The position numbers and the translations under genes were made by a program. 64,000 bases of DNA from Gracilariopsis chorda (taxonomy: Eukaryota; Rhodophyta; Florideophyceae; Gracilariales; Gracilariaceae): contig NBIV01000008.1 in assembly GCA_003194525.1 (NCBI GenBank), positions 434,001 to 498,000 of the forward strand. The letters run 5' to 3'. Positions 17,942 to 40,599 of the stretch are shown here, one piece after another. Position 1 is the stretch's first letter; every line of letters starts with the position of its first letter. The notes below the pieces were generated by a model. That model was not told where the DNA came from. It was given only the letters and a program-made list of their open reading frames with translations, and searched no databases.

Positions 17942-19624
17942 ATGGAAAGCCATCAAGCATCGCCAAGCCGTCTATCACGCGAAAGCCATCCAGCAAAGCC
18001 AACCGAGACGTTGTTTGGTGGGTGGCAGTACCGTCAAATTGTACAGCTTTTTGTTCAAAACCTGGGCGATTGCCTTCTAGGAGAAGAGCACTATCAGCGT
18101 ATCCTCTCGTATGGTGAGCGTAAGACTGGAGCAGAGCAGAGATCTCTCCGCAATTTCGGTCAGCACGTACACTGGAATACGACAATCTATCAAAAGTGGC
18201 GGAGCCATCCGCAGTTCTCGCAAGTTTTGACAACATTCTTCACCCATACTGATGGATCAGAAACGCAGGAAGAGCAGGAGGCTAATGGTAAATCTCGCGC
18301 TGAGGATGTTATCTCTAGATTTGACAACGGCGAGATGGAGTTTGTGTTTGAGGAGGTCGTTAGTGTTATTGATCACGGTGGCCTATACGATCAGTACACG
18401 ATGGACACAAAAACAGAGCGATATGTTGAGCTTGTTAAGTTCTTTACGCCTCTACAATGCGCGAAGAACGAAATCAACTTAACCGCGGTATTGTACACAA
18501 AGCTTAGCTTTATTGTGCAGCACTTCATTAACGATGTTTCCTCCGTGGAAACATCCCCTCAAACCGTCAACATGGTGCTGATATGCTGCATGCTCCTGGT
18601 TGGACAAGCTTCAGCAATTACGGCTTCCGGAACACCTTGGTTGTTAAATGCCTTCTTGGTCATGACTGTGGACTCGTCAGAAGGTAGCATGAGATCCCTA
18701 TCACTTGTACTGCAAAAGGACTGCAATAGTCTATACCAGATGAGCTGGACGATGGGGTTGCTCAAAATCAAGCAAAGTGATCAGGAGGAGGAAATCACTT
18801 CTTCAATGACCATAGAAGAAGGCAGGGCATACAAGCGCTTGTTGAATGGCGGAAATGTCTCTAATGAAATGTACACGCGCCTGCGCACTTTGTCGATTAT
18901 GATGATGAGCGAGGGAATAATTGTGCAGAGTGACGGGGTGACGCGCTTGCTGCGCGGACAGATTGCAGGAGACGAGGAGGCTGTTAGAGAAGTGGAAGGT
19001 TTTCTGAGAATTGCCGAGACTAAGAACGGCTTCATCAGAGGGCAACGTCGGAACCGGTTATTGGTTTGGTTAGCGCGTCTGTATCTGGTAGTAACGGCTG
19101 CTTTGAGTATTTTTGTGGCGGCTGAGAATGTCGGCAACAGAGATAATTTATTCGAAAGAATCACTGATGGTCTCGCTACTGTGACGGCTTGTTGGTTTAC
19201 CATGCTTGGCCTGAGGAAAGTGCAAAGTGACGACGAGAAGATTATTCGACACATGGTGCTGGGTATTATACCCATCCAACACGCAGACGAACTGGTATCG
19301 TACCTACAAACCGATGCTGAGACACTCAAGGTGGCACTTAGCCGCAACGTCCAAGACTACGCGTGGCTCAGCCCCAACCAATGTTGCTTCGTAAAGGGAA
19401 AGGCAATTGGCAACTTGGAGGTTTTAGGGGGCTTGGACGCGTTTTCATGTGACCGTGCAGGCTTGTTGGAGGTAGACAAAGGAGTGGTGTATGACGTTGT
19501 GAACGCGATGCTTGGCCAAGGAAAGAAAGACGGTGAGAATTATCATGTGATGGGTTGGTCCAGAAGCACCAAGTGGTTCATTGCGAATCGGGTGCCAGAT
19601 AACTGTGTGGTGGCTGGTTCTTAG
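17942..19624 (+). CDS. Unrecognised multi-pass membrane protein (about 560 aa)
   Basis: I choose the ATG at 17942 (M-E-S-H-Q-A-S) because the earlier in-frame ATG at 17834 adds 36 unlikely residues. The N-terminal half is soluble, with mixed charge and aromatic residues (F-G-G-W-Q-Y-R-Q-I-V-Q-L-F). Hydrophobic, membrane-like segments lie at about residues 235-265 (V-L-I-C-C-M-L-L-V-G and the following W-L-L-N-A-F-L-V-M), 380-405 (L-L-V-W-L-A-R-L-Y-L-V-V-T-A-A-L) and 420-440. I recognise no family. The gene abuts the Harbinger element: its TAG stop takes TA from the TTA target duplication and G from the first base of the transposon. The unoccupied site would also read TAG, so the protein end is unchanged. 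Confidence 0.75.
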   Translation: MESHQASPSRLSRESHPAKPTETLFGGWQYRQIVQLFVQNLGDCLLGEEHYQRILSYGERKTGAEQRSLRNFGQHVHWNTTIYQKWRSHPQFSQVLTTFFTHTDGSETQEEQEANGKSRAEDVISRFDNGEMEFVFEEVVSVIDHGGLYDQYTMDTKTERYVELVKFFTPLQCAKNEINLTAVLYTKLSFIVQHFINDVSSVETSPQTVNMVLICCMLLVGQASAITASGTPWLLNAFLVMTVDSSEGSMRSLSLVLQKDCNSLYQMSWTMGLLKIKQSDQEEEITSSMTIEEGRAYKRLLNGGNVSNEMYTRLRTLSIMMMSEGIIVQSDGVTRLLRGQIAGDEEAVREVEGFLRIAETKNGFIRGQRRNRLLVWLARLYLVVTAALSIFVAAENVGNRDNLFERITDGLATVTACWFTMLGLRKVQSDDEKIIRHMVLGIIPIQHADELVSYLQTDAETLKVALSRNVQDYAWLSPNQCCFVKGKAIGNLEVLGGLDAFSCDRAGLLEVDKGVVYDVVNAMLGQGKKDGENYHVMGWSRSTKWFIANRVPDNCVVAGS

Positions 19625-19647
19625 GGCCGTTCTATGAGTTTCTAGAT
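19624..19647 (+). repeat. Left terminal inverted repeat of the Harbinger element
   Basis: The first 15 bases are identical to the reverse complement of the right end. The following bases match with single mismatches to about position 24. Preceded by TTA. Confidence 0.85.
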
Positions 19648-19780
19648 TTTAACGGATGTAAACGTGTTACGCGGTCAACTTCAAGCTTTCAGCCAAGGCT
19701 TCATTCTATGAGTTTTTTCTTAACGCGAGCCCCATACCCTCCCAGAGACAATTCAGTACGCTTACGGCCACCCTTGCACC

Positions 19781-21106
19781 ATGCCAACGTTAGAACGGGT
19801 AACGCAACGCCAATATCCGCGAATTCGAAAGCAACGTCACAGACCAAGACATCGCGCTCTATTAACCAAGAAAGATCCTTCCAGAGCAATGAGTTTGTTC
19901 GTAGACTCATCAACTATACAAAACGAAAGCGTGCTTACCGTTATTTGTATTATTCTTCTCACCATTGCAGCGGACCTATGTTCACCTATACATTTCAAAA
20001 GCCCTGTTGTTCCGAGACCACAATTCAACTTTGAAGCTCATATGGCTACTCTTTCTACTCAATTGTTTCACGGAATGTACCTTCTCTCAAAAGAGCAGTT
20101 TAATATCCTTTCCAAACTTCTCTCAGTCAAACTCTTGAGAATGAAAAGAAAACGGAGCTATATTGCTGCTTCTGTATCCGTACCTGTTATGCTATGTTTA
20201 ACTTTACGGCTCTTAGCAGGTGCAAGCTATCTAGACCTCGGGTGGGCATATGGTGTTGCTGAGTGTACCGTATATCATGTGTTTCATGAAACTCTTCACG
20301 TTCTAAATGAATTCCTTCCACAAATTCGATTTCCGATCTCTTTTGAAGAGTGTTTTGCAAACACGGATATGTTCGAGAAACGTCTCCGAAGTTCACTTGA
20401 TGGTGTAGTGGCAGCCTTGGATGGTATCGCGATCGAAATTATTCGGCCTAAGCTTCGAGAAGCGTCAGATCCTCGTAAGTACTACAATCGCAAAGGGTTT
20501 TTTGCAATCTGTGTGCAGGCAGCAGTTCAAGCAGACTACAAATTCTGCTTCGTTTCAGCGCGACATGCGGGTGGAACGCATGATTCTACAGCTTTTAAGG
20601 CACCTTTATTGTACGATTTGTTAAGTGGTCCACAGCTACCATCGTGGGCAGCTGTTGTTGCTGATGAAGCGTATACAAACGAGCACAGAATTCTAACGCC
20701 GTATCCAGGACGAAATCTAAGTACAAAAGAAGATTGTTTCAACGCGTATCATTCTTTATCCAGATTTTGTTGCTAGCAGGCGTTCGGGATGCTTGTATGT
20801 CGATTTGGCATCTTTTGGTCAGCTCTTCGTTACTCGTTGCCAACTTCTACACTTATCATTATGGTCACGTGCAAACTCCACAACTTCATTATTGATAATG
20901 GAGACAGCTCGGTGTTTGAACTCGTACCGCATCATGATGATAATCGTGTGACTGGTACGCCTATCATACACCTTCAGGATGACTGTCACACAGAAGGCGA
21001 AAACAGACGGTCAAGGAACAGGCGAAGAGAAACGTCGTCGCGGCGCAATGAACTTGCAGAAAAGCTTCATAGGCTAGGATACCTGCGAAGACGACGTTTT
21101 ATATGA
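19781..21106 (+). pseudogene. HARBI1/PIF-type transposase, catalytic Glu codon mutated to TAG
   Basis: The DDE superfamily domain (DDE_Tnp_4 type) is recognisable throughout. The first catalytic Asp is in L-D-G-I-A-I-E-I (residue 214), followed by Y-Y-N-R-K-G-F-F-A-I and H-D-S-T-A-F. The second Asp is in V-V-A-D-E-A-Y (residue 295). The third acidic residue should be the Glu of an [I/V]-E-Q-A-F-G-M-L motif. Here codon 332 (20774-20776) is TAG, directly followed in frame by Q-A-F-G-M-L. After it the frame continues to 21106 with C-K-L-H-N-F-I-I-D-N-G, the usual C-terminal helix of the family, and an Arg-rich tail. One substitution (GAG to TAG) explains the break and would also abolish catalysis. 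Transcribed inward from the left repeat. Some N-terminal residues may be leader; alternative starts lie at residues 37 and 88. Confidence 0.88.
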
Positions 21107-21254
21107 AAAGACGTTCTAGTAAACCTCCTCTTCGAGTTCTAACGAGTTCTGCATCTGTATCTGACCGGGACGCCACATTGCCACGTCCTAAACCAACAGC
21201 TCTTCCGATAGCTATACCCGTGCTAGCCGGATTCGAAATGGTAACTCAAGCTAC

Positions 21255-21321
21255 TCCTCTTGATGCGCCCCTTGACGCCCCTCTTGATGGACATCTAGAT
21301 GCGCCTCTTGACGCACCTCTG
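21255..21321. repeat. 12-bp tandem repeat (CTTGATGCGCCC type)
   Basis: About five units of a 12-mer, reading as repeated L-D-A-P on the plus strand and His/Gln-rich on the minus strand. It lies between the transposase and the C-terminal end of the SNF2 gene. Confidence 0.7.
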
Positions 21322-21453
21322 ATCGTTGCAGCATTCCCAGCTCTAATGCCTCTCGTGCCATGCACACGGTACCACGATTCACTGTCATGCTATTGTTTCC
21401 TTTTGATGAACCATCTAGTCCCTGATTAGTCCTGCCTGTGCCGGCACTGGGAC

Positions 21454-22738
21454 CTACTGGGGCTCCGCTGTGCTGGCAGTTCCCCGACAACGCGCCAGTG
21501 GATTACCGCTGCCGGTCCCAGGTTGAAGTGGTGATGACACATACGAAGAATAGAGAGCTTTAGAATTGTGGTCACCTCCTCCGTAGTTTAATACTTGTCC
21601 TATACGGATTTGTGAACCAGTCAAGAGCGTGGGAGTCCCCAAAGAATAAACCCACGCATCTCCGTTCTGGAGCATGGAGGTGGTGACCATTGACTGTACG
21701 ACGCCTTGAGATCCGGCAATCTTTCCAGAAGTTGCCTTCAATGTGCTCCTCGCGTTAGAGGGAGGCATTCCCCAGGAATTGGGAAGATCAGCTGTAGAAC
21801 GAGAATACTTCGCTGCATTCTGCACGGCTGAGGTAGCTACACGAGTCATCACAACAGCGTGGTTGACGGATCCTATCTGGCTTTGGCCATCTTCCTTTTT
21901 TTGACACTGAAACACTTTTTCCACTAGTTCCCAGGTTCACATGTTTGAAACCAGAAGACTTTATAGTTGAAGGGTTGGATTCCCTGCGAGATATGCTATG
22001 AGGCGGCAGAACATTTCCAGCCTCTTGGGGACGATGGGAAGTCGACTGATTCTCCGTTTTCAAATCAACTGTCTTCATCTTCGGTGTAGAACCTCGAGAG
22101 CCGGCAGCATTGCGAATCTGACCGTTATGACGCGACGATGCTCCAAGATTCATGTTGCGAGCTCCTCTGCCTGGCCTCTTTTGGAAGCGATTTGGGTCTC
22201 CACTCTTTATTGCTGGTTGATCTTGATAAGAAGCACCAACAGCGGTTGAAAGCCCACCTGTACGCGTTAAGAGTCAGATATCATCTCTAGGAGAAAACAT
22301 GAAAGGCCGTCCACGCTTGTAAACAGCCTGAGGCCCTGTTTCGGTCGTTCTCATTCCGGGCTTATGGTGCTCAGGAATATTGAAGCACTTAAGAACTGCG
22401 GTCAGGGGTGGCAAAAGCTCTGGCCACACCATCCCCTTCATCTTTGATGTCGCTTCAGACATTAACTTCTGGTGGGATGAATGCAACTCAAGTCCCGTCT
22501 GTCCGCTATTTGACACAGCCTTTGTACGTAAAGCACTGACGGCACGTTGCAACGCGGAATGATGCTTCTGCACAATTTCCCGATAGCTTATAATTGCCCT
22601 CGGAACCGGTCGACCGCTCTTGATATCCTTTCCAAAATCATTGAGAAGCCTATCTACAGAATGCCGGACTGGCCTGAACCGACGAACTCCCATTCGTACG
22701 AGTGGATCCGAAGACAGAAGGTCAGCAACGAGAAACAT
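21454..22738 (-). pseudogene. SNF2 ATPase segment 6: second half of SANT and C-terminal tail
   Basis: Beyond the retrotransposon the frame resumes with M-F-L-V-A-D-L-L-S-S-D-P, the second SANT helix. It continues to a TGA at 22274 and then in frame through a Gly/Ser/Gln-rich tail. At about 21890-21905 a T7 run (A7 on the coding strand) shifts the frame; the shifted frame runs to 21454. Removing the element and one copy of the ATATT duplication rejoins the SANT domain in frame. Confidence 0.75.
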
Positions 22739-22741
22739 ATT

Positions 22742-23642
22742 TGTAGTGCAATACCCGCAAGCAGGACAACACACGAAGACGTTCGGATCTTCCCTTCTGG
22801 AGGGTAACACAGCGAACGGAGCCTCTCCGGATGAGCACGACGAAGTCGGGTTGTAAAGCCGAGGCTCACCCTCACGCCAAGCGGGGAGAGTTGAAACGGT
22901 AGGATTAGGATCACCACGAATGGGAAAACAGCCCTTCCAAGGAGTACGAGTCCACGTAAGTGGGGGAAGACGTCACGGGATACCGGCACGAGAGACACGC
23001 GTCAGCGGTGACGAACAACCACAAAAAGGGGTAGAAACCACGAGAGTGGGGTAAGGGAAATACGGGGGATGCCCGATTGGGGGCGAAGGGGGTGTGGGCC
23101 AACAGGACCACGGAAAAAGGTACAAAGGAACCCTATACAGGGGCGAGAACACGGCGGTGGTGAATTAAGTGACAAGTGCCCAAGGCGGTGATACTCCTAG
23201 TGACGCAGGGTGGATAGGTTTACCGTTAGTAACGCGGCTTTACCTCCGAGGAGCGTAGAAGACTCGCGAAAGCGGAAAAGACTTAGAGCCAAGAACCCTG
23301 GTTGGGGAAGTTTACTCAGTGTCAGGGCGAGGTCGCCGAGCCACTATATAGTGTAGTAATCTCCCTACTGTAGCGTAGATAAATTTTAAATAATAAATAT
23401 AACTTAAATAAATGTCCACACTGTGGTGCCAACCTCCTCCTGACGATCCGTGTCACACGTGGTCCACTCACGCCATGGGCGGCACAAGGCGCATGCACAG
23501 GTGTGCAACTGGCGCACAGTGCGGATCCGCTGAGGTCTGAGACACCCGCTAATAGCGGTAGTAATCATAAACACGCGAAAGCGGCAAAAACACCAAGTCC
23601 ACAGGGCATCGCTGAGTCTTCCTCCATGAAGATTGCAGTTCA
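22742..23642 (-). repeat. 3' LTR of the Ty3/gypsy element
   Basis: 901 bp, starting TGTAGTGCAATAC and ending GCAGTTCA on the plus strand. It contains the palindromic TATA motif CACTATATAGTG at 23342-23353. Confidence 0.93.
23342..23353. promoter_or_regulatory. Palindromic TATA element in the 3' LTR
   Basis: CACTATATAGTG is a perfect 12-bp palindrome, present identically in both LTRs. In this copy a rightward transcript would enter the antisense ORF about 300-500 bp downstream. Confidence 0.5.
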
Positions 23643-23655
23643 TATCCCCCTCCTG
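23643..23655 (-). promoter_or_regulatory. Polypurine tract of the Ty3/gypsy element
   Basis: On the sense strand this reads AGGAGGGGGATA immediately before the 3' LTR, as expected for the plus-strand primer. Confidence 0.75.
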
Positions 23656-23677
23656 AGGTGCGAATACGACATCCACG

Positions 23678-24952
23678 ATGGCAACGGAAGCACCGGGCAA
23701 GGTCCTTAAATGTAAGTCCGGCTCGCCGGTTCTCCATCCCACCCTGGGTAACGAGCACCTAGCTGTGAACAGCGAATCGGCGAGCAACTCTTACGAGGTT
23801 CTTCCAACAACACACACGCTTTCGCGGCCTTCTTCTCCGATTACTCGGCTTCCTTCATCTACGATGAACAACAACAACAGCAACGGCAACGCCGGCAACA
23901 AAACACCGTTACAGTACTTCTCCGGATTTCATTCCGTGCCTCTACCGCAAAGCGGTCTCTCGACTCCGTCGCAACAAACAGGCGCAAGTGCGAGTGCGGC
24001 TCCCACGGGAGGGTATCTAATGGCAGCGTGGCCGTCGTACGACATGCTGATCGGGCTGCAGCCTTCGCAACATGCGATGACTCTCCAGCTGGCGCCGTGG
24101 TTCCACCCGACTGCGGTGTTCAATGATGCGCTTCTGGCGATGTATACCGATGGAAACGGGATGCTCCCGGTTGACGTTCCGGCAATCGTGACCACTTCGT
24201 GGGATTGGCGCAATCGCGTAGCGATACCCGTGCACACTATAATCCAACGGGGTCGGGAATCAACAGCTTCCGCGCACGCGGCGTTGGTCTTACTTGCTCA
24301 TCAACGGCTTCGCCGGGATCCCTTCGAGTATCCCATCCCCGATGGTATGGGCTCCAACATCGGATTGTATCGCACCCAAGGTGAAATGGGGTACCTCGAT
24401 TTCATCGACCAGGTTGACTGGGCTTCGGTTCCTCTAGATCAGAGTGGGCGTACTGCCGGTAGCAGGATACAGGACCTGTCGCCAGGGCGTCGAACTCCGC
24501 TCGCGGGTGACTTCATCTACTTCAACCCTTGGGAGGGGCATGAGATCTCCGCGGAGGAAGCGAACGAGCTCCGGTTTGCACCGAGATATATCCCCGAGGG
24601 GCATCCGACCGGTTTTGTTGACGCCGATGAGTACTACAACGTCTACGACGGTGAGGATCCGATGTTCGACAACGAGCCCAGCGAAGGTGCTGGTCACGCC
24701 GAGGCGGAGGGAGAACCATATGGTATGGATGCTCCTGGAGTCGCCCCTGCGAGTCAGCCGTCCGATCCGTCGGTCGGTCTTCCCACTGGTGGGTCCTCTA
24801 CGCCAGGTGAGGCGAACGTGGCCCCTGCGGGTCAGGCTGCCGTGATCTCTCAGTTCTTCCGCCAAGTAGGGCTGGGAGGTAATGAGGCCAGTGGCGATGT
24901 CACCGCGATGCGGGATGCTCTGATAGCCCGACTCCAGGGAAATAACCACTAA
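23678..24952 (+). CDS. Antisense ORF of the Ty3/gypsy element (424 aa), unrecognised
   Basis: This open frame lies between the polypurine tract and the chromodomain end of pol, on the strand opposite to gag-pol. It is intact, unlike gag and pol. A likely start is 23678 or the later ATG at 23863 (M-N-N-N-N-S-N-G-N). The N-terminus is Asn/Ser/Gln-rich. Residues about 105-300 look globular, with well-spread aromatic residues (A-A-W-P-S-Y-D-M-L-I, L-Q-L-A-P-W-F-H-P-T-A-V-F, T-S-W-D-W-R-N-R-V-A-I-P-V). The C-terminal third is acidic and Gly/Pro-rich. No membrane segment is present, so it is not envelope-like. Antisense ORFs in this position are known in some plant Ty3/gypsy elements. I recognise no domain. 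A polyadenylation-like AATAAA follows at 25061. Confidence 0.75.
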   Translation: MATEAPGKVLKCKSGSPVLHPTLGNEHLAVNSESASNSYEVLPTTHTLSRPSSPITRLPSSTMNNNNSNGNAGNKTPLQYFSGFHSVPLPQSGLSTPSQQTGASASAAPTGGYLMAAWPSYDMLIGLQPSQHAMTLQLAPWFHPTAVFNDALLAMYTDGNGMLPVDVPAIVTTSWDWRNRVAIPVHTIIQRGRESTASAHAALVLLAHQRLRRDPFEYPIPDGMGSNIGLYRTQGEMGYLDFIDQVDWASVPLDQSGRTAGSRIQDLSPGRRTPLAGDFIYFNPWEGHEISAEEANELRFAPRYIPEGHPTGFVDADEYYNVYDGEDPMFDNEPSEGAGHAEAEGEPYGMDAPGVAPASQPSDPSVGLPTGGSSTPGEANVAPAGQAAVISQFFRQVGLGGNEASGDVTAMRDALIARLQGNNH

Positions 24953-25060
24953 GGTGCGGGCGGTTCCAACCCGAAAGGGGGCGTGTTCCCTCACCACGGG
25001 GGTGCAACCTTGTGACGTAGTGTAGTCCTTCGACTAGTCGGTGTTCCATCGATCGTATCG

Positions 25061-25066
25061 AATAAA
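25061..25066 (+). terminator. Possible poly(A) signal of the antisense ORF
   Basis: AATAAA lies 109 bp after the antisense stop codon and is followed by T/C-rich sequence. It fits a separate antisense transcript but is only suggestive. Confidence 0.35.
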
Positions 25067-25165
25067 ATCCAAGTTTACTTGTGTTCCTTCTTCTTTCCTT
25101 TCCTTTCTTCCTTTCCACACCACAACTCGATCCTTCATTTCCTTCCTTCCACTGCAGTGGCTTGC

Positions 25166-25582
25166 TTATCCCACTTGGGCGTTTATCACCGATGCCGGGA
25201 TTCCCGTTCGCGTTCTGCGATGATATGACACCACTTTCGAACGTGGGAGGTGCTCTATCGGCTCATCCAAATCATATTCGAGCCCGAAACCGTACCAGCG
25301 TACGCGGTACTGGATGTAACCATCTGGATGGTAAGAATGTCCCACAATGTGGTCAACAACAAACTCCTGTTTGTAGACTTCCCGGCCTCGCCGTGTTCGC
25401 ACTACCGCGTCCTGCACCGCAGGCTCTACCACCACTGGTGGGTGTTGGACAGTCTTCCCCGGAAGGGGCATGGCTTGGTACTGCCTGTCCATGCCCTTAT
25501 AGGAGTCATTAACCGGTTTCCAGGTAGGTTCATCCGCTTCGCGGGCCTGGAGGTCCTCGGCACGGCCGGTTGCGTCGACCAC
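25166..25582 (-). pseudogene. Chromodomain at the C-terminus of Ty3/gypsy pol, cut off by a TAA
   Basis: The segment contains Y-K-Q-E-F-V-V-D-H-I-V-G followed by I-Q-Y-R-V-R-W-Y-G-F and D-E-P-I-E-H-L-P, the layout of a chromodomain that tethers integrase to chromatin in chromoviruses. It lies in the same frame as pol. The only interruption is one TAA at 25649-25651. The in-frame bridge between them encodes ordinary residues (S-E-E-T-A-K-W-D-T-L). Confidence 0.8.
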
Positions 25583-25648
25583 TTGATGGTGCGTATCGGG
25601 ACCCTGGCTGTGGGTTAAAGTATCCCACTTCGCGGTTTCTTCACTTCT

Positions 25649-28600
25649 TTAGGGGGCGTCTATTGACGACACCCTTTGAGGGGCTTCTAACGGATCTGAA
25701 AGATGAGCATCTGGGTCGCGAACCACAGGTTTGTGTGTAGATATCCGTCTTGACGGGGGTGCTCCAGACGACGAAGTCGGTTGCACCACGGTGCGTCGTA
25801 CAGTACGCGTCGGCTCGCCTTGGGCGGTGATTGGTGCCTTTGCCGTCCGTACGGTGTCGGGGTCACGTGCCGTTTGCAACGGATGGTCGAGGGTTGTCCG
25901 CGCCGTGTCGCGTTCCGCCTCCTCACGTGAGGACGGTTGCAACGGTGCTGCCGGTGTGTTGTCTCGCTTGGGCGACGAAGTATTTCCGTCATTGACGTGC
26001 TTTCCTTCCGGAGTGACCGGTGCGACTTCGGCGACACTGTCGTGATCAACCGAGACACTCGGAGTGAGTTCGCGACTGCGCGATGGTCCTAAACCAGAAT
26101 CCAGCTTGCTGGTCGGTTTCCTTCCGTCCTGTACGGTGTGCTTGCCCGGCCTGGCCGGTGTGTTCTGCCGTGCAGTAGGAGTTACCACGTCCGGTGTAGT
26201 CGGCTCAGAGGATCCCGCGAGGGCCTGCTCTGCATTATCCAGCGTAGCTGTTGTTGACGAACCGTGACCCATGGAATGCGGATCAACGCTCGACGGCACA
26301 GCCGGTTCAGTATCGCAAACGCGATTAGTTCCCTGCAACGATTTCACTTTGGCGAGAGACTTCCCACTGCGTGGTGCATTTTGGCGACTAGAATCCCGGT
26401 GGGGAGTGCGATCTGGCGCAGATGCGGTAGAACTTCCTCGAGAGGGTTCAGCGGTAGCTGTAGCACGCAAATGCAAAGATGGCACGTCAGTAGACGGAAT
26501 TATCGGTCCACTATTATCCTTTTCGATGTTTCCGGAGGCCCGTGCACCACGGTTGTCATGACGCGACGAAGCGGTTTCAGTGTTAGGGTCCTCCTCCCCC
26601 TCCTTAAATGGAGCGGCATGGGGAGTGGTAGAAGCGCCCAAACTGCGGGGATAGACACCGCGCAGTGGCGTTAGAGAAGAAAGGCCATTCGGGCCTGCAT
26701 CCGATAAGGACGGTATATATGAGAGTCCCCTTGAAGGGTGTGGCAACACAGAAGGCCTGTTAACCACAGATGTGGGTTGTTCCACTGGGGTGTGTTGGTT
26801 CTCATCTTGGTAAGCAACCTCTACGGAGGGTGGCGGTGCCATAACAATGCGATCGCGGGAAATCCGCTCCTGAGCGTCGTTCATTTCCACCACTAAGGTG
26901 TCGTTATCCACTGATATGACCTTGTAGGGACCGTCCGCGACGGGTGAGAGCTTATGCCGTTTCTCCTTATCAGGGTTCCAGTGCTCGTTACGGACGAAGA
27001 CGTAGTCACCCTCCGTAATTGGCGGTGCTGTACCTCGTACACGAGAGTCAAAATCACGCTTGTACGCGGCCTGTGCTCGTGCCATGGAGCTTCCTGCGAC
27101 CGGGATTAACTTTGTAAGCCACGCTTTCCATCGTTGGCGATAATCCTTCACGGAAGGGAAGTTTGCCAGCGTAGGCTGGGGTTCCAACGCTACGGCGGGC
27201 GGATGACGCGAAAGTACCAATTCAAATGGAGTCAAACCCGTTGTACGGTGTACCTGTGTGTTATACGCAAACGTCAAGGCGTCAGTGTACAGGTCCCATG
27301 TTTTGGGGTGATCAGCAATGTAAGAACGGAGAGAGGCCAACAGCGTTCGGTTAAACCGCTCGACTTGCCTATTACACTGGAGGTGGTTGGTCGTTGTGAA
27401 CAGATTCTTGATATCGAGCATCCGACACACGTCCTCAAAGAATCGCGATGCGAATTGCTTTCCGTTATCGGATAGAATGTTAACCGGTGGTCCGTAGACA
27501 AATACCCAATGGGTGACGAAGGCTTGCGCCACCACGAAAGCGGATATCTTCCGTAAAGTTACGGTGCGAACCAACTTGGAGAAACGATCCGTGATAACGA
27601 GTAAAAACTTATGTCCACGCTTTGTGGTGAGCAGCGGTCCCAAGAGGTCAATTGCGACAAACTCGAGAGGGACCCGTGTTGGAAATAACTTCAACTTCGT
27701 TGAGTGCTTCTGGAGTTTGACCCGGTTTTTGGCACACTCCGTGCATGACCGGACAGTCACGTAGCAGTCCACAGCCATGGCTGGCCAATAGTAACTCCGT
27801 CGCAACGTGAGGTAAAGTTTCCGTCCACCGGCGTGTCCACCAAGTTTTGCATAGTGCGACAAGTGCAACAATCTAGATTGTAGAGTATGTGTTACCACTA
27901 CCTGTGGGGTTGTTTGAACCGTCCTGACGAGGTATCCAACATCATTCACCTCGAAAGGGAGTTGCGCAACGCCATTAAGTCGGGCGCGAATCTGAGTACA
28001 GAAGGGATCACCTTGTTGTTCTCTGACCATCTCTTCCGGGGGTGTTGGCGCGAAATTACCCGGTGGGGGTTTCTGAGCATCGTCCGAGACGAGTAGTGCG
28101 TCCAGTTCATCATCCGATTCCGGTTCTTCATCCGAGTTATCGGGTTCACGGTCCGGGTTCTCCGGTTCTCGACCGTGGACGACGAAGCAAGGAATGTCCT
28201 CGTCCCCAGCGGGTAGAGTTTCACCATCCGTGGGTAAACGCGACAGCGCGTCCGCCTGAGCGTTCTTTGTGCCCTTCTTGTAGATCACCTCGAAGTCGAA
28301 TTCCGCCAGGCGGAGCCTCCAATGCATTAAGTGGCCTGACGGTTCAGAGACTGTCATGAGCCATCGTAATGAAGAGTGATCCGTGTAAACGGTGAAGTGC
28401 ACACCCATAAGATAGGGGCAGAGAGTGGAGAGTGCCCACACAACTGCAAGACACTCTTTCTCCGAGACGGAGTAATTCCGCTCGTGAACATTCAGTGAGC
28501 GTGACCAGTACCCAATAGGGGTTCGTTCTCCTTCGGGAGTTGTCTGAAAGAGAGGGAAACCTACTTGGTAGTCACTAGCATCCGTGTCTACGGTAAACGG

Positions 28601-30268: not shown

Positions 30269-30720
30269 AAGAAAGGAGCCAAGGCGACCAGGTCGATTGT
30301 CTCAACCGTTGATAACGGGTTATCATTCGCATCCGCGACATCCAGTATCATGCCATGGCGGGTCTGAGACTGCAACGACGGTGGCAGGAGCGACTCAACG
30401 ATGAAGTTCGGGCCTGCACCTTTGTCCAAAACAGTGAGAACTCGCACCATAAACTGGGTGGAAAGGCCAAGGTCAGCATATACCTTGTGGTTTCTCTTGG
30501 CCATTACCAAAACTCTGTCCGGGAACCGGTTCTTTCGAACACGTTTCCACGGTCGACGCAGAACACTAAAGTGTTCAGAGTTCACGTCTGAGACGGCCTG
30601 TTTCCTAGTAAGGATTTTGACCGGGGAGCGAGGCAGTGACGCCTCGGGCGCCTTCCACCTCAACTCTGAGGGCGCCTCTCCCGTAGGGGAGACTCCCAAA
30701 ATCAGTTTTCCTGAGCGCGT
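30265..30720 (-). pseudogene. Ty3/gypsy protease N-terminal half
   Basis: Contains V-L-D-K-G-A-G-P-N-F-I, the retropepsin active-site motif with Lys at the position that is usually Ser or Thr. The frame is -1 relative to gag, so it is probably reached by programmed frameshifting. It then ends in a stop at 30265 while the protease continues in another frame (G-S-F-L-V-K-L-D-F), showing a real indel near 30275-30290. Confidence 0.75.
30677..30704 (-). promoter_or_regulatory. Candidate -1 frameshift site between gag and pol
   Basis: On the sense strand gag ends G-GAA-AAC-TGA and the protease frame is -1, reading GGA-AAA-CTG. A hairpin with a 6-bp perfect stem (TCTCCC/GGGAGA, 4-nt loop; 30677-30692) lies 9 nt downstream of the stop. 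The slippery heptamer is imperfect at one position. Confidence 0.5.
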
Positions 30721-32814: not shown

Positions 32815-32908
32815 GTGTAGACCAAAAACTCCCACGAAGTGGTAAGAAACCAAAAGTTTGGACAGTGAATCTCCGAGGAGACGTAATACAAAACTTAACC
32901 GTTTCCGA

Positions 32909-32926
32909 TTCTAGGTCGGGAGACCA
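32909..32926 (-). promoter_or_regulatory. Primer binding site of the Ty3/gypsy element
   Basis: On the sense strand the site reads TGGTCTCCCGACCTAGAA and lies 3 nt after the 5' LTR. Its complement has the layout of a tRNA 3' end: CCA, discriminator A, a 7-nt acceptor strand, a 5-nt T-stem strand and two loop bases. I cannot say which tRNA it matches. Confidence 0.75.
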
Positions 32927-32929
32927 CTT

Positions 32930-33830
32930 TGTAGTGCAATACCCGCAAGCAGGACAACACACGAAGACGTTCGGATCTTCCCCTCTGGAGGGTAACACAG
33001 CGAACGGAGCCTCTCCGGATGAGTACGACGAAGTCGGGTTGTAAAGCCGAGGCTCACCCTCACGCCAAGCGGGGAGAGTTGAAACGGTAGGATTAGGATC
33101 ACCACGAATGGGAAAACAGCCCTTCCAAGGAGTACGAGTCCACGTAAGTGGGGGAAGACGTCACGGGATACCGGCACGAGAGACACGCGTCAGCGGTGAC
33201 GAACAACCACACAAAGGGGTAGAAACCACGAAAGTGGGGTAAGGGAAATACGGGGGATGCCCGATTGGGGGCGAAGGGGGTGTGGGCCAACGGGACCACG
33301 GAAAAAGGTACAAAGGAACCCTATACAGGGGCGAGAACACGGCGGTGGTGAATTAAGTGACAAGTGCCCAAGGCGGTGATACTCCTAGTGACGCAGGGTG
33401 GATAGGTCTACCGTTAGTAACGCGGCTTTACCTCCGAGGAGCGTAGAAGACTCGCGAAAGCGGAAAAGACTTAGAGCCAAGAACCCTGGTTGGGGAAGTT
33501 TACTCAGTGTCAGGGCGAGGTCGCTGAGCCACTATATAGTGTAGTAATCTCCCTACTGTAGCGTAGATAAATTTTAAATAATAAATATAAATTAAATAAA
33601 TATCCACACTGTGGTGCCAACCTCCTCCTGACGATCCGTGTCACACGTGGTCCACTCACGCCTCGGGCGGCACACGGCGCATGCACAGGTGTGCACCTGG
33701 CGCACAGTGCGGATCCGCTGCGGTCTGAGACACCCGCTAATAGCGGTAGAAATCGTAAACACGCGAAAGCGGCCAAAACACCAAGTCCACAGGGCATCGC
33801 TGAGTCTTCCTCCTTGAGGATTGCACTTCA
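32930..33830 (-). repeat. 5' LTR of the Ty3/gypsy element
   Basis: 901 bp copy of the left LTR. The TATA palindrome is at 33530-33541 and would drive gag-pol leftwards. Its outer end abuts the ATATT duplication and the SANT codons of the SNF2 gene. Confidence 0.93.
33530..33541. promoter_or_regulatory. Palindromic TATA element in the 5' LTR
   Basis: The same CACTATATAGTG palindrome. Leftward initiation would give the gag-pol RNA; rightward initiation would read out into the host SNF2 gene in antisense. Confidence 0.55.
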
Positions 33831-33835
33831 ATATT

Positions 33836-35818
33836 GTGGTTACACGCAGAGGCAGCATCTATCAAGGCCTCATCCTCCTCCTTGGTCCAGCCATCGTTTA
33901 CTCTGTTAGGTTCGTTAGATATGCTGCTTCCATAGTTCGCAATTGAAGACTTAATTCCAGGAATCGTAAACCGTTTCGTGTTCTTCTTTGCCTTGTTCTT
34001 GAATAGACACCTACTCGAATGATGTGTATCAGATCCTGAACCTGCACTAGCTACACTCATTTCGTTCTTCGACCTAGAAGAAGAATCCGCTCTGCTCTTC
34101 TTCGAACCAGATTGGATTGAGATGGATAGTAGCTCGGGTTTTCCTTTTGTTGTCCTTGCACGATCAGCGGCACCTGATCCCTTAAGCTGCTCATCCCTGG
34201 AGGAGTCCACAGAAGATGCAGCGCGGCTGCTCGTTTGGTTAGGAGCAGAACATGCTGCTTCCAACTTGCGTCTTCTCTCAATTTCAGCCTTCCTCTTCCG
34301 CAGGTTCTCAAGACCCTTCTCTTTCTGCCTTCTCGTTGCATGCATTGTCCGGCTCATTCTGTTGTAAGGGTGCGGGAAGAAAGCTGCATCTTCCGCACAT
34401 TCTAAACCAGCCGCTGCGGTGCCATGTACTACCGACGAAACGTTAAGCTCTTCTGGACCACCGTCGCGTAGCGGCAGGTACATATTAATGTCCGCGTCGG
34501 CGTTCGTCAGCGCTTTTAAATAGCTTGCATGTCCATCATCAGTAATATCCACTTCATAAAGCAGAGTCTCCGTATCATCTTCTCCAGTGCTCTCGATTTC
34601 AGAATCATTTGCATCATCTGGACGAGAGCTCTCTCCAAGTACAGAATCGAATCCAGGAGTAGCCCAATTTGCACCAATGGTGTTGCCATGCGAGGGCTCA
34701 GGAAGAGATTCTGCCCCACTCATACGTTCAAGAACACGAAGTGCGTATCTCTGAATACGTGTTAGAGAGTTCACGAACTTCGCAAACTCATTAGTTCGAC
34801 TGCTTTTGTTGTCGGCCCTCGTCGCATCAATATGATGATCTTCCGGGGTGTCCTTAAACTCAGCTTCTAGGTCATGTTTTTCTTTCTCGGCAGCTTTGAG
34901 GGCTAGTTCTTCACGCTCATCTTCCCTGGCTAGAAGCTTGGAGGTTAATTCTTGGTACTCATCAGAGCCATCTCCAACGTCCTGAATCACTGCCTCACTG
35001 CTTGCCTTTCCCATACCATTCTCCATTTCGCTCTTATTTGCTGCTCTGAATCCTGTAAACTCCCCGTAGAAGCATTTGACACCAGTACTCTCGGCACTCC
35101 GCAATGATTCTGAAGAAACTGGTCGGCTCCTACCGTTTTCTGCTAGGTCCTGCAGTACTATAGATTTCGGAGTCGGTGAGCTGCTTCGTATTCCGTTCTT
35201 GGGAGCTCCAAGTCTTTCATTATGAACAGCAGGATGTGAGGTCTGGCTTTCTCCGGTATTCTGTGGAGACTTTACCATTTTGGAGGAATCTCGATATCTC
35301 TGAATTCCATCCGTGGTGAAACCAGGATATGAAATTATTTGCTGCTCCAGTGAACGCTTCCCCATTGCCCATTTCAGAACTTTTTCCTCTACAGTTTGTT
35401 CCGAAATCAGGCGGTACACATGTACAGGCTTCGTTTGCCCAATACGATGCGCCCGGTCTTGGGCTTGATTATTAATCGCAGGGTTGTAATCAGAATCATA
35501 GAAAATCACCGTGTCGGCACCAGTTAAGTTAATCCCAACGCCTCCTGCACGCGTGGTTAGTATCATAGAGAGAATTCTTGAATCAGAGTTAAACCATTCC
35601 ACCACTCTTTGTCTTTCGTCAGTCTTTGTTGTACCATCCAAACGAAGGTATCGAAAGCAATGGAGATTCAGAAATGATTCCAGAATGTCAAGCATTCTCG
35701 TCATCTGTGTGAAGATCAACGCACGCGAGGTCCGAACCTTAAGCTCACGTAAGAAGTGATGTAGAGTTTGTAGCTTACCACAGTCCCATTGCACAAGTCT
35801 AGTGTCTGGAATCGTCAC
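33836..35818 (-). pseudogene. SNF2 ATPase segment 5: helicase lobe 2 and first half of SANT
   Basis: Motif IV region R-A-L-I-F-T-Q-M-T-R-M-L-D, motif V R-A-G-G-V-G-I-N-L-T and motif VI Q-A-Q-D-R-A-H-R-I-G-Q-T are intact. A long charged linker of about 350 residues leads to a SANT start, W-T-K-E-E-D-E-A-L-I-D-A-A. The gene is cut two residues after C-N-H by the Ty3/gypsy insertion. Open frame beyond 33835 is LTR sequence. Confidence 0.88.
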
Positions 35819-35881
35819 CTGACTACGAACTTCAAATTCACGAAAAAGAGCACGTAGTCCCGATGACGCCCGGGTGAGCTC

Positions 35882-36619
35882 TCAAAAACTGTCTGGCTCA
35901 CGAAAGCGTGACAAATCATCCCCATAGAAACGAAGCTGAACAGTGGGCGCGATTACTTTGGTAATGCAGCACAAAAAACGATTAGCTATTGGTTTAGCCT
36001 GTTCCACTACCTGTTCGATGGAACGAACCAATGAAGGTCGAGGGGTATCCCACAAAAAACCTGAAGGGGAATCTTTCTGAAGCACATGAAACAAGGACGA
36101 AACCGTCATCGAATATATACCACGTAAATCCTGTCCTAGAAGCGCCCGTTGTCTGATCCTTAGTGCATGTACCAAAACTTGGTGGTGCAGAGTAGCATAG
36201 CGAGATGCGGTTCTTCGATGTTGGGCACGTTGACTACCTGTTCGAAAGTCCAAGCTCTCTTGGGACTCATGCAGAGATCCTAAACACTTAGGACTATCCA
36301 TTCCGTCTCGCATTACCTTTACGGCCGATAGACGTTCCAGTTCGTTTTCAATCCATTTGCCAGGCGAGTTGTGCTCCCCGTACTGAAAATATAAACCCAT
36401 AAGGTGCAGTGTTACATAATGTCTTGGATCATCTTGAATCTCTCGTGCCACTATCATAGGCACAGGTAAGAAAATGGCATTACTAGAAAATGGCGATAAA
36501 ATTGGACGCCCTTCGAAAAGGTCAGGGTGGTTACAGACTTTTCGTAGCTGAAGCAGAACATTCATAACTCCAAGCATATCTTTTGACTTCAATGTTTCTC
36601 GTGTGTCACCTCGAGCCAT
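35882..36619 (-). pseudogene. SNF2 ATPase segment 4: spacer between lobes
   Basis: Starts with L-S-K-R-Q-R-Q-L-Y-E-D-F just upstream and continues L-L-Q-L-R-K-V-C-N-H-P-D-L-F, the conserved start of lobe 2. A variable insert of about 200 residues typical of SWR1/INO80 enzymes follows. It ends at TGA with the frame continuing as E-L-T-R-A-S-S-G-L-R. Confidence 0.8.
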
Positions 36620-36676
36620 GAAATCTTCATAAAGCTGCCGCTGCCGTTTGCTCAGACGACATAATATTATGTGTTC

Positions 36677-37159
36677 TTACTTGGGCGGTAGCCCTTTCAC
36701 AACATCTTTCTTCAACCGACGAAGCAAGAAAGGGCGAAGAATGGCGTGTAGAGTGCAGACTGTTTCAGACTTACCATGGTTCAGGTCTTTTTCTGCTTCT
36801 ACGACTTCAATAAGAGGCTTCCAAAAAGTATCCTTGAACCATGAATGGCTTTCGAATAGTTTGGGCATCAAGAAATGCATTAAAGACCAAAGCTCCATAA
36901 CAGAATTTTGCAGAGGAGTACCTGTTAGCAACAGACGATGTCTCGATGAGAAGGTTAGTAGTGTTTGCCACCTCTGAGATTCAAAGTTCTTGATGTTATG
37001 GGCCTCATCCAAGATCAAGTAGTACCACTTCTTCCCACGTAATATAATGGAATCTTGCACCGACAGGGTGTAGGAAGTGATACAAACATGAAACATATCA
37101 GGCCTTGTCCAACCGCGGCGTTTCACTTTTCGTTCCTTGACAGAGCCAAAATACGTCAA
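36677..37159 (-). pseudogene. SNF2 ATPase segment 3: DEAH box
   Basis: Contains motif II L-D-E-A-H-N-I-K-N and motif III L-L-T-G-T-P-L-Q-N, then L-R-R-L-K-K-D-V. It ends at L-P-P-K then TAA, where relatives have Tyr (TAC), followed in frame by E-H-I-I-L-C-R-L-S-K-R-Q-R. Confidence 0.85.
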
Positions 37160-37198
37160 AACCTTGAATCCTGGCAGCCATTTCTTGAATTCTACTTC

Positions 37199-38062
37199 TC
37201 ATTTCACCATAACTGAGGTCAGAACAACAATGAGGTGTGGACCCCACACCCCTTTCTCAACAGCCAACCATGCCAAGAGATCAATAGTCTGAATGGTCTT
37301 TCCAAGTCCCATGTCATCCGCTAGTATTCCATTGAGGTTTTTGCGCCAGAGCGTCAGTAGCCATTCCAAACCTCTTCTTTGGTAATCTCGATGGTTTCCA
37401 CGAAATAGCGTACTTGGTAAATGAGTACTCGAAACATGCTTTCGAACGACATGAACAGGAAGTGCTTTACCGTTCTCGACAGCTCTTGAGGATTCCTCGA
37501 CCAGTTCTTTTCCCTGACCGGATGGTGAATGGTTAGAGTTGCCATTAGTTTGTGATTCGGACAAACATGGCGATTCTCTGGAAGGATGCGTACGATCCTC
37601 TTCGTTAATCTTTGTAGACTGTCCATTCATTGAAGAGTACTTCTCTACCATAGCAGCATTCGTGTTACGGTCTTTGATTACATGTTCAATATTTACAAAT
37701 GACATGTTACACCTTTCCTGACCCATTGCAATTCCTGCATCATCTCCCTTAAACCCATTCTCTACCGGAGAGAGAAGTGTGGATTTCGGATCATTGTTCG
37801 CATCCGTAGATAGAGTGGAAACTTTTGATCCACTCTGTGGTTTCAAGTATACCGTCTGATCTGCTCTATACACATCAGGTTCTATTCCTTGGGCTCTGAA
37901 AATCTCTTCAATGCTGGCTGCTGCCTCGTCGGCCAGCCTTTGACCCTCATGTACATCCGGCACGTCTTCAGCCTCCGCAGCTCTTATTGTCTCTTCATCA
38001 TCAACAACTTCATTCCTGGATGTAGGCTCACTCACGTCTGAATCGTCGACGTCTTTGTCCAA
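37199..38062 (-). pseudogene. SNF2 ATPase segment 2: Walker A / motif I
   Basis: The frame is the same as segment 1. It carries [16 protein letters not shown] sequence (here [11 protein letters not shown]) and motif [14 protein letters not shown]. Glu of the usual A-D-E-M-G is Asp. It ends at S-V-M-V-K then TGA, where relatives have Trp (TGG), followed in frame by E-V-E-F-K-K-W. Confidence 0.85.
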
Positions 38063-38128
38063 CGCTGTGTTTGAGTTTTTTTCCGAAAAATACTTCTGCA
38101 GATCAATAAACTGAGAACGAAGTAAGTC

Positions 38129-38890
38129 CTATAGTGGCAAATCAGCCTGAGTTTGTAATGCACGCAATTCATTTGGATCCCTTTCTTCTTCTGCTTCTGC
38201 AATGGCCATAGTGGTTTCATCATCGGAGCCATCAGTGTGCTCTTCGGCAGAGTTACTGGCAGGACTCGAAACCTCAGAATCACAATCCTCTTGTTTGCTG
38301 TTGCTAGGACTCAGAACATAGCCTGTGACGCGGACAATGGTTGTAGACTGTTCTCGTAAACTATTCTCATCAGGACTACCTTCTGGAAGAAGAGCACCTT
38401 CTGCCCTATCCCCGGCATGGCTCTCAACGCTTCCGCCACCAAAGGATACATGCTTTACCACATTGCAGGCGTCGTTATGATGATTAGCTGAAGGAGGGAT
38501 TCGGAGCGTAGATGCAAGCTCTGATGAGAGCGCTTCTGTTTTCTCAAAAAGGTCCTTGAGTTTAGATTGCCTTTCCTTGTCCTGCTGGGCTTTAGTCTTT
38601 AAAGCGGCTCTGTAATCAGCAATCTCCCCAATTTGCCTCCAAAACTTCGAGACATCCTTTGCCATAGAAGTTGCAAGTTTTCGCATTCGTTGCAATTCTT
38701 CTACTTGAGCTGTAGCTTGACGACGTCTCCGCTGATTGTGGTACTGTACAACCATCTTTGCAATCTTTCTCGCCATTTGCATTTTCCACTTGCGCTCTCC
38801 GATGAAATCGGTAGCCAACCATACTGCTTCTTCCATAATATAATGAACTTTGGATCTTTGCAGGGAACATTTTGAACAAGCCGTGCCCAT
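38129..38890 (-). pseudogene. SNF2 ATPase segment 1: HSA domain
   Basis: H-Y-I-M-E-E-A-V-W-L-A-T-D-F followed by E-R-K-W-K-M-Q-M-A-R-K-I is a canonical HSA domain, which in SWR1-type enzymes binds actin and actin-related proteins. An acidic linker follows, ending at L-P-L then TAG. The same frame continues with D-L-L-R-S-Q-F, where the family usually has an acidic residue at the stop position. Confidence 0.85.
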
Positions 38891-38937
38891 TACTTTGCAT
38901 TACATAGAATTCGCCGCTTCCTGCAGAGGTTATGCTA

Positions 38938-40227
38938 CTATGCAGCTCTTTCTGACTCAAGAGATGCTTTGAGGTTGTTTAGAACTCCTTCAAACAAAGC
39001 CTTTTCTTCCGCACTAACGCCTTGCTCCAACATATCCTTCACACGCACTATCGCTTCCAGCGCAGACGTAGTAGAGCGAGCTTTTGCGTCCATGACTTCA
39101 AACTGTAGCCGTCGCTTTTCCAGTTGTTCTAATTCAGCTGGGACATTTCGCTGCTGCTTTAAGGCCGATACGATCTCATCTAAACCAACAAAATTAACAT
39201 CATGCACATCTCGCTTTAGTCTCTTCTGTTGGTCACGAAAAAACTCATTTCCTCCAAACCCGTATGGGTTGACCCCAGACCCCACCCCTTCCTCCCGTTG
39301 AACATCACTCTCCAATGCACGGGTAACAAATGGTTTCAAAATAGGGTGTAGCTGCAGAAAGCAGTACCCGTGCATAATATATGCTTTGCCGTCGGCAAAC
39401 CTAGCGAACGCTTCTGGATCTCCTTGCCCCGACGCCTCAAATTTTGCTAAGCACTGACCGTATACGCTTTTGAATTCTGCAAACTTTCTCTTTAACACAC
39501 CACCTTCACGAATATAAGGACGCTCAGCAGGATTGAGCATACATATATCGTCGGATGTGATACCTCCGGAAAGAGTTGTGTTTGCAGCATGTTTGAAGGA
39601 AATGTCATTAAATAACGGCGCGATTTGTTCACTCCATGGATCTTCATTCTGTCGATCAAGCTCCTCTCTGGTTAAGCATTCCATTAGTTTGGTTCTTGCT
39701 GCAGTCATACGTGGGTCCGCAAAGACATGAAGCAGTCTACAATACTCTGCGGCTTCAAAAGCCGGGTTTCGACTTTCGTTGGGAGACGAGTTGTTGTAAA
39801 ACGATTGTAGTGATGGTTTTCCTACGACAACTTTATCTCCGATCAGTTGCAGTGCATCTCCTTGAATGAAATCGATCTGCTCTCTCCCAGATTCAGATTT
39901 ATTTATACGAACTGTCGTATGTGGTAAGTCTTGGATGTGAGTAGAAACATTGTTAGAGCTGGGTACTACGTTTTGCATTACCTGAACAAGATGCGATGCG
40001 CTTATTTTCCGCTGTACCATTTTCATGGATATAATTTTGCGCTTTGTATCTATCTTCGCGTTAATGGCTCCGCTAACTTTGAGTACCTCCAACGCTTTCT
40101 TACATTGTGAGTTGCGCAATGTGTAAGCATCAAGTTGATTACAAGCTTCATGGAGCGTTTTTGGAGGTGGCTGAGTACGGGGTCCAACTTCATGCGTACT
40201 TGATGGCTGCAGATCAGAGTCTGTCAT
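38938..40227 (-). CDS. Unrecognised 429-aa protein, probable second ORF of the Harbinger element
   Basis: The frame is intact, just inside the right terminal repeat and transcribed towards the transposase, where PIF/Harbinger elements normally keep their second (DNA-binding or accessory) protein. The core (residues about 160-310) has the spaced pattern R-L-L-H-V-F-A-D, L-x-R-E-E-L-D, W-x-x-x-I-A-x-L-F-N-D, L-K-R-K-F-A-E-F-K, and F-A-x-G-K-A-Y-I-x-H-G-Y-C-F-L. From memory this recalls a family of uncharacterised proteins abundant in oomycete and algal genomes. The last 90 residues are predicted coiled coil (L-E-Q-L-E-K-R-R-L-Q-F-E-V). The SNF2 gene starts 47 nt downstream on the same strand. 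No Myb/SANT signature is obvious. The function is unknown; helping transposase bind the ends is a guess. Confidence 0.7.
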   Translation of the reverse strand: MTDSDLQPSSTHEVGPRTQPPPKTLHEACNQLDAYTLRNSQCKKALEVLKVSGAINAKIDTKRKIISMKMVQRKISASHLVQVMQNVVPSSNNVSTHIQDLPHTTVRINKSESGREQIDFIQGDALQLIGDKVVVGKPSLQSFYNNSSPNESRNPAFEAAEYCRLLHVFADPRMTAARTKLMECLTREELDRQNEDPWSEQIAPLFNDISFKHAANTTLSGGITSDDICMLNPAERPYIREGGVLKRKFAEFKSVYGQCLAKFEASGQGDPEAFARFADGKAYIMHGYCFLQLHPILKPFVTRALESDVQREEGVGSGVNPYGFGGNEFFRDQQKRLKRDVHDVNFVGLDEIVSALKQQRNVPAELEQLEKRRLQFEVMDAKARSTTSALEAIVRVKDMLEQGVSAEEKALFEGVLNNLKASLESERAA

Positions 40228-40382
40228 GTTCGTACTAGCGGTTGTTCGTCATTCACAAAGTGCGGCAAGAAAGATATCATAGTTATTGAAACCACGCAAT
40301 TCTAGGTTTGTCATTTGGACTTGTCGGGTGGAAGCTTGTTTTTGACTGGATGCAACTGTGAAGTGTATTCTTTCAACGTTCA

Positions 40383-40435
40383 GATTTCGTTTAATGTAGG
40401 AAGCAACAATCGTGCTCCCTACATTAAACTAAATC
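40383..40435. repeat. Subterminal hairpin in the right end of the Harbinger element
   Basis: GATTTCGTTTAATGTAGG (40383-40400) and CCTACATTAAACTAAATC (40418-40435) pair over 18 bp with one mismatch and a 17-nt loop. It lies about 95 bp inside the right terminal repeat, upstream of the 429-aa ORF. Confidence 0.75.
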
Positions 40436-40505
40436 TTGAAGCGTTTGGAGGCAACGTAAAAATGCCTGATTGCTCGAGAATGGTTTTCCAGTTTCGTTTC
40501 GTTTC

Positions 40506-40529
40506 ATTTAGAATCTCATAGAACGGCCC
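40506..40529 (-). repeat. Right terminal inverted repeat of the Harbinger element
   Basis: Inverted copy of the left end, followed by TTA at 40530-40532. It lies about 280 bp outside the start codon of the 429-aa protein. Confidence 0.85.
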
Positions 40530-40599
40530 TTAGGTTACGAAGCGAAACATGTCCAGTAGCTACTGTAGGGAACAGGGAGAAATTATCCAGGAAGCAGGG

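Follow-up and report, generated by a model that had tools for sequence, protein, structure and literature searches.

A Harbinger-type transposon of the red alga Gracilariopsis chorda carrying a fragment of the host SWR1-type remodeller

The window analysed here, a stretch of 64,000 nucleotides of the red alga Gracilariopsis chorda (GenBank assembly GCA_003194525.1, contig NBIV01000008.1, positions 434,001 to 498,000 of the forward strand), contains at positions 19624..40529 a Harbinger-type element with terminal repeats of about 24 bp and TTA duplications, inside which lie pieces of an SNF2 ATPase akin to SWR1. A chromatin remodeller within a DNA transposon raises the question of how it came there and whether the element makes use of it. 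The first-pass annotation, made from the letters alone, saw a giant transposon with a whole remodeller gene as cargo, which could open target chromatin or help the element to escape silencing. Our analysis leads with high confidence to another account, namely that a cut-and-paste PIF/Harbinger-type (PHIS) transposon captured SWR1 sequence once, was spread by transposase and carries the captured piece as a decaying passenger.

The element in the window and its copies elsewhere

The proposed inverted arms were recovered at 19620-19647 and 40506-40533 (28 nt, 89% complementary, TTA counted in). The left terminal inverted repeat (GGGCCGTTCTATGAG...) occupies 19624..19647 on the plus strand and the right one 40506..40529 on the minus strand, with the TTA target-site duplication (TSD) directly outside them at 19621..19623 and 40530..40532. 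The element is bounded by terminal repeats of the GGGCCGTTCTA type and inserts with a 3-bp TNA duplication; a 24-bp inverted repeat (hairpin) lies in its right subterminal region (40382..40436). Its core consists of two convergent genes, a HARBI1-type transposase of about 441 aa on the plus strand (19781..21104) and a 429-aa open reading frame (ORF) on the minus strand (38938..40227). The transposase matches the IS5/HARBI1-type DDE domain DDE_Tnp_4 (E 7.5e-16, 58.6 bits against a cut-off of 24.8), which bears out the enclosed transposase of the first-pass annotation; its frame is interrupted in the window by one in-frame stop, the open part being 19781-20776, and in every copy read, six in all, it contains a stop or a frameshift. 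The second ORF is open in the window copy, as proposed.

The space between the two convergent 3' ends, from about 21104 to 38938, is filled by the SWR1 block, which lies on the minus strand and in window coordinates covers 38844-33831 plus 22741-21125. The main part (33831..38844) is 96.9% identical to the host locus C223:124191->119178, and the 3' part, which corresponds to the C-terminal portion (21125..22741), is 93.0% identical to C223:119182->117568. Along the block lie an HSA domain match (38675..38860, its upper end 16 bases beyond the capture breakpoint), the SNF2-rel_dom lobe (36518..37384, interrupted twice by in-frame stops in the window) and the Helicase_C lobe (35438..35701, residues 2-89 of ORF 33737-35704). 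The two parts are separated by a nested Gypsy-type long terminal repeat (LTR) retrotransposon on the minus strand (22742..33830), whose LTRs (~22742-23642 and 32930-33830, about 900 bp each) are 97.8% identical and whose sole long ORF seen (25649-30157) carries reverse transcriptase, RNase H and integrase domains. It is flanked by a 5-bp duplication, ATATT, its insertion point lies within the SWR1 cargo, and it is missing at the equivalent point in the five best other copies (C24, C46, C352, C294, C121). About half of the giant size of the element is this insertion: once the retrotransposon (11.1 kb) is subtracted from 20.9 kb, a basic element of 9.8 kb is left.

In the genome (91.3 Mb in 1081 contigs), the left 277 bp of the element matched at 33 places and the right 280 bp gave 56 match rows, a few of which are the internal inverted repeat read on the other strand; many left and right ends were paired about 400 bp apart, in the manner of miniature inverted-repeat transposable elements (MITEs). 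Ten further paired-end places were retrieved. C24, C46, C352 and C294 match the window minus its retrotransposon over the full length, collinearly and at 93-97.5% identity, C121 is likewise collinear except for one internal gap of 394 bp, and C146, C139, C340, C155 and C302 show greater divergence or rearrangements. Both ends were located in 10 of the 11 copies, the left end of C302 being off pattern and its right end outside the retrieved stretch. Matching 3-bp TSDs flank eight of these ten, the window included: TTA in the window, TAA in C24, C294, C139, C340 and C146, and TGA in C46 and C352. Copies between the same repeats with different flanks, which the first-pass annotation had proposed to look for together with empty sites, were found, with TTA, TAA or TGA duplications rather than TTA only.

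Empty sites were sought with eight joined flanks as probes, and among the best 40 of 1030 candidates scored, related sites were obtained for three of them (C46, C294 and C139). These sites are element-free, carry a single target triplet and could be aligned base by base; they correspond to C163 and C161 for C46, to C88, C86 and others for C294, and to C376 and others for C139, where the first base of the target triplet differs. Two matches to the C352 probe extend just 20 bp beyond the junction. The SWR1-bearing copies are independent transposition events, and the ATPase moves with the element, as had been supposed, because the copies are collinear, their TSDs differ and empty sites exist. Matches to the SWR1 core lie at 13 places, comprising the donor, the window, C219 (69%) and ten others that also show element-end or second-ORF matches, and HSA matches add C139 and C302. 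The composite is present at at least 11 places, with C49 and C195 counted as copies from matches alone.

Origin and decay of the ATPase cargo

The donor of the cargo is legible in the same genome. At C223, the host gene forms an open frame of 2534 codons with the features of the SWR1/SRCAP type: HSA, SNF2 and Helicase_C domains forming a split SNF2 ATPase and, in a search with 2231 of these codons, SRCAP (6igm, E 2e-228) and SWR1 (6gej, E 1.5e-192) as the closest solved relatives. The nearest named relative is from Agarophyton chilense. The majority frame of six copies is an intronless minus-strand ATPase of about 2000 codons that runs through the retrotransposon site, and its reading is 96.3% identical to the C223 product over 1951 aa. 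The cargo represents one continuous 6.62-kb block of the host locus (C223:124191 to 117568), entirely within coding sequence and about 96% identical to the host gene in young copies, and it is devoid of the promoter, the start and the C-terminal end of that gene. These correspondences indicate that the cargo ATPase is a fragment of the host SWR1/SRCAP-type remodeller. Of the whole gene initially described, HSA, SNF2-rel and Helicase_C do lie inside the element; both ends are missing, and the window copy is additionally split by the retrotransposon and carries in-frame stops. An ancient or foreign SNF2 family (four other SNF2 loci share about 32-56% amino-acid identity in the matched pieces) was dropped as a candidate once the C223 donor had been read.

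At the 5' side, 9 of 11 copies share one breakpoint (host base 1310), the exceptions being C155, where it is gone, and C146, where it is 5 bp off; the 3' breakpoint (host base 7933) is likewise identical in 9 of 11, being gone in C155 and not found in C302. Since the breakpoints are common to 9 of 11 copies, a single capture of the SWR1 block followed by amplification is the simplest reading.

The cargo does not behave as an intact gene under purifying selection: in-frame stops occur in all six main copies read, and the pooled ratio of nonsynonymous to synonymous polymorphism (pN/pS) among them is 1.17, compared with 0.97 for the transposase and 0.72 for the 429-aa ORF. Private changes in the cargo comprise 460 nonsynonymous and 131 synonymous ones. 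Four stops are common to C24, C46 and the window; C352 has three of these, and C294 and C121 have none. Because copies of the youngest branch share in-frame stops, this branch spread with its ATPase frame already broken. The cargo evolves almost neutrally, as a decaying passenger. All six copies share 43 fixed amino-acid differences; with one relative as outgroup, 24 of these were assigned to the element side and 8 to the host side, and 11 stayed undecided.

In the account that we favour, the 6.62-kb internal stretch of SWR1 would have been gained once, in the space towards which the transposase and 429-aa genes converge with their 3' ends, most likely through faulty repair, at or within the element, in which a host template was copied. 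The composite would then have spread to at least 11 places through transposase acting on the terminal repeats, presumably supplied in trans, since none of the six copies read has an intact transposase frame; the 429-aa protein may have a role in mobility as well. Such spread would need no SWR1 function, the SWR1 piece decaying as a passenger, and the window copy would later have received the LTR retrotransposon within this piece.

Several observations weigh against this account. The target duplications of C121 and C155 do not match. Divergence from the host gene ranges from about 4% to 15% among copies with the same breakpoints and reaches 19% in C155, where the breakpoints are gone, and this unevenness is at odds with one capture and one clock. 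Hypermutation by CpG deamination was considered for the uneven divergence and rejected: CpG transitions occur at about 2-3 times the non-CpG rate, and about half of the changes in seven copies are transversions. For the six main copies, the ratio of nonsynonymous to synonymous divergence (dN/dS) between host and copy lies in the range 0.65-0.85 (C340 was left out, as its misaligned interior inflates the value). Amino-acid changes affect 8.0% of the cells at sites conserved between the host and its closest relative found (849 of 10596), fewer than the 12.1% at variable sites (304 of 2508). The SWR1 cargo may thus have passed through a brief early functional phase or early constraint.

Sister elements and the competing explanations

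The position of the cargo between convergent genes recurs in the genome. For pairing, the best 150 of 792 candidate DDE matches were set against 100 match rows of the 429-aa ORF. Among the matches listed, a convergent DDE_Tnp_4 match lies within 25 kb in 42 of the 100 rows, in 41 of them within 10 kb, and non-convergent pairs within 10 kb number 5. Between the two genes, 10 rows leave a gap of 0.25-2.3 kb and 31 a gap of 3.3-8.0 kb, and in the window copy it reaches 18 kb, C121 and C130 each being counted twice; in four elements the two matches are just 252-255 bp apart, with no room for cargo.

The 429-aa ORF has no Pfam match. Its family is represented genome-wide by 222 candidates, of which 98 were scored, with at least 100 match rows, and 6-7 homologous proteins were found, the only named one being from Chondrus crispus. 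The full-length fold prediction has a predicted local distance difference test score of 54, and the predicted model of the core bears a weak resemblance to a DNA-binding domain (Sap1); Myb/SANT proteins are absent from the Foldseek list, an absence that carries no weight against a Myb/SANT fold.

Six related or sister elements were read beyond the SWR1 family (C41, C10, C82, C258, C4 and C8:342), and they hold other host genes, or none. C10 and C82, which are 97.8% identical, carry a BTAF1/MOT1-like gene in the same orientation as the transposase; in C10 it matches the BTAF1 gene of the host, located at C9, with 91-92% identity. The second ORF of C10 and C82 shows only a distant likeness (24%) to the 429-aa ORF. 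The cargo of C41 contains leucyl-tRNA-synthetase and glyoxalase/EF-hand pieces, in which two blocks match C108 (93%) with a block matching C140 (96%) between them and little shared sequence at the joins. C108 and C140 are taken as the putative donor loci, because frames of 997 and 558 codons are open there. C258 carries kinase and DUF676 pieces and C4 a DUF3684 piece; in the interior of C8:342 nothing was recognised. The terminal core GGGCCGTTCTA is common to C10, C82, C41 and C258, and TTA stands at both ends of C10 and C41.

A stretch of about 150 bp in the C41 cargo (L034:6149-6300) matches at least 26 other places at 91-92%, spaced 16-18 kb apart on several small contigs, and may be a tandem repeat unit such as ribosomal DNA. 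C236, C149, C171 and C106 possibly belong to the second Harbinger family of the C10/C82 type, judged from adjoining DDE and SNF2 matches. Further SNF2-domain loci with in-frame stops (C223:30379, C806:1782, C273:46240, C244:73768 and C219:45971) are possibly cargo or pseudogenes.

A broader reading joins these observations. It supposes a large clade of two-gene Harbinger elements in the host alga, with a standing slot between the converging 3' ends that was refilled repeatedly with kilobases of host genes, once from two donors in succession, while the mobility genes were kept, and it adds that, before its decay, the SWR1 cargo may at first have been advantageous, acting either as a truncated ATPase or through antisense RNA directed at host SWR1. 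As a whole, we consider this combination doubtful.

Taken separately, an antisense effect is unlikely. Transcription from the transposase side would produce antisense RNA or small RNA by which host SWR1 is reduced and its control of the element weakened; the SWR1 block indeed follows the transposase immediately downstream, in antisense orientation, it is present at no fewer than 11 places, and an identity of about 96% to the host, as in young copies, is in principle sufficient for RNA silencing. However, the BTAF1 cargo of C10 is in sense orientation, and the unrelated cargoes speak against a benefit specific to SWR1.

That the ATPase is a working accessory gene, loosening chromatin at target or donor sites or countering silencing, seems very unlikely to us. 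The captured block does include both ATPase lobes and the HSA domain; of three ATPase motifs examined in 7 copies, two are unchanged in 6 copies each and the third in 5, the deficit of changes at conserved sites and the host-copy dN/dS point in the same direction, and chromatin- or DNA-modifying enzymes occur in other Harbinger lineages (SET in HarbingerS; TET/JBP, fungal), according to the parts of PMC12730594 consulted. The block nevertheless came without the host promoter, start and C-terminal end, the six main copies carry stops, several of them common to the youngest, which implies spread without a readable ATPase, pN/pS between copies is about 1.2, and sister elements hold unrelated genes in the same slot. 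The chromatin-opening function suggested at first is thus unsupported, because the cargo is a truncated host fragment with a pN/pS of about 1 and with stops that predate the spread of the youngest copies, and because its slot is used for other genes in sisters.

Chance assembly of a host SWR1 duplicate between unrelated solo repeats, for which the many MITE-like pairs of the same ends might be cited, is practically negligible and was ruled out by the collinear copies, with their identical order, breakpoints and ends on different contigs, differing TSDs and empty sites.

Around the element, the window contains a 560-aa ORF without Pfam match (17942-19624) with its stop codon at the point where the element is inserted; the joined-flank reading of this ORF terminates at the same point. 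On the other side, a 568-aa ORF with a DDE_1 domain (41115-42821), which we take to be pogo/Tigger-type, belongs to another DNA transposon or a derived gene. Two cyclin-type ORFs are located at 1387-2679 (minus strand) and 15581-16966 (plus strand), with about 13 kb between them.

Relation to known elements and meaning of the capture

The IS5/HARBI1-type DDE domain and the terminal inverted repeats with 3-bp TSDs place the element in the PIF/Harbinger (PHIS) superfamily. The TGA duplications of C46 and C352 depart from the TTA/TAA of PIF/Harbinger proper, and the family appears nearest to NuwaII, judged by the TNA duplication. NuwaII of PHIS shares with the red-algal element the HARBI1/IS5-type DDE, a second ORF and the TNA duplication, reported as C|TNA|G, with the flanking C..G present in some red-algal copies; unlike the red-algal element, it is described, in the part of the source consulted, without host cargo (PMC4482050).

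Gene capture by such elements has precedents, which are cited here from excerpts of the respective papers. The Pifvine-3 PIF elements of grapevine capture host DNA while keeping the transposase and the second ORF; their extra DNA reaches up to 3.5 kb in a long 5' region, whereas the red-algal element holds 6.6 kb of one host gene between convergent 3' ends (PMC2528002). Non-autonomous Pack-type Harbinger-PIF elements occur in rice and maize and, like the red-algal element with its 6.62-kb SWR1 block, carry host coding DNA between their terminal inverted repeats and spread it by transposition; Pack-TYPE elements are, however, defined as non-autonomous, whereas the red-algal ones retain the transposase and second-ORF genes, broken in the copies read (PMC8903248). 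Turmoil-1 of C. elegans is also a Harbinger with captured host coding pieces and a suggested capture hotspot, but its pieces lie within 760-bp inverted repeats and one complete copy is reported (PMC2572040). HarbingerS, with a SET methyltransferase, and the TET-bearing families likewise combine a Harbinger with a chromatin- or DNA-modifying extra ORF; there the extra gene is found repeatedly, in 15 families in the case of TET, whereas the red alga shows one decaying host fragment among other cargoes (PMC12730594). The Repbase element Harbinger-29_CCri is also named in PMC12730594. In the literature searched, we found neither a red-algal case of Harbinger gene capture nor one in which SWR1 is the cargo. 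Harbinger-29_CCri is presumably from Chondrus crispus, so that Harbinger elements as such would not be new to red algae.

The phenomenon is therefore gene capture (transduplication) by two-ORF Harbinger elements, of the kind known from grapevine PIF, and the puzzling remodeller-bearing transposon becomes a clear case of such capture outside plants and animals. As the donor gene, the breakpoints, the two-donor sister cargo and the empty sites are all legible in one genome, the repair route of capture becomes testable. For the annotation of such genomes, it also follows that SNF2-, BTAF1-, leucyl-tRNA-synthetase- and kinase-like "genes" can be transposon cargo.

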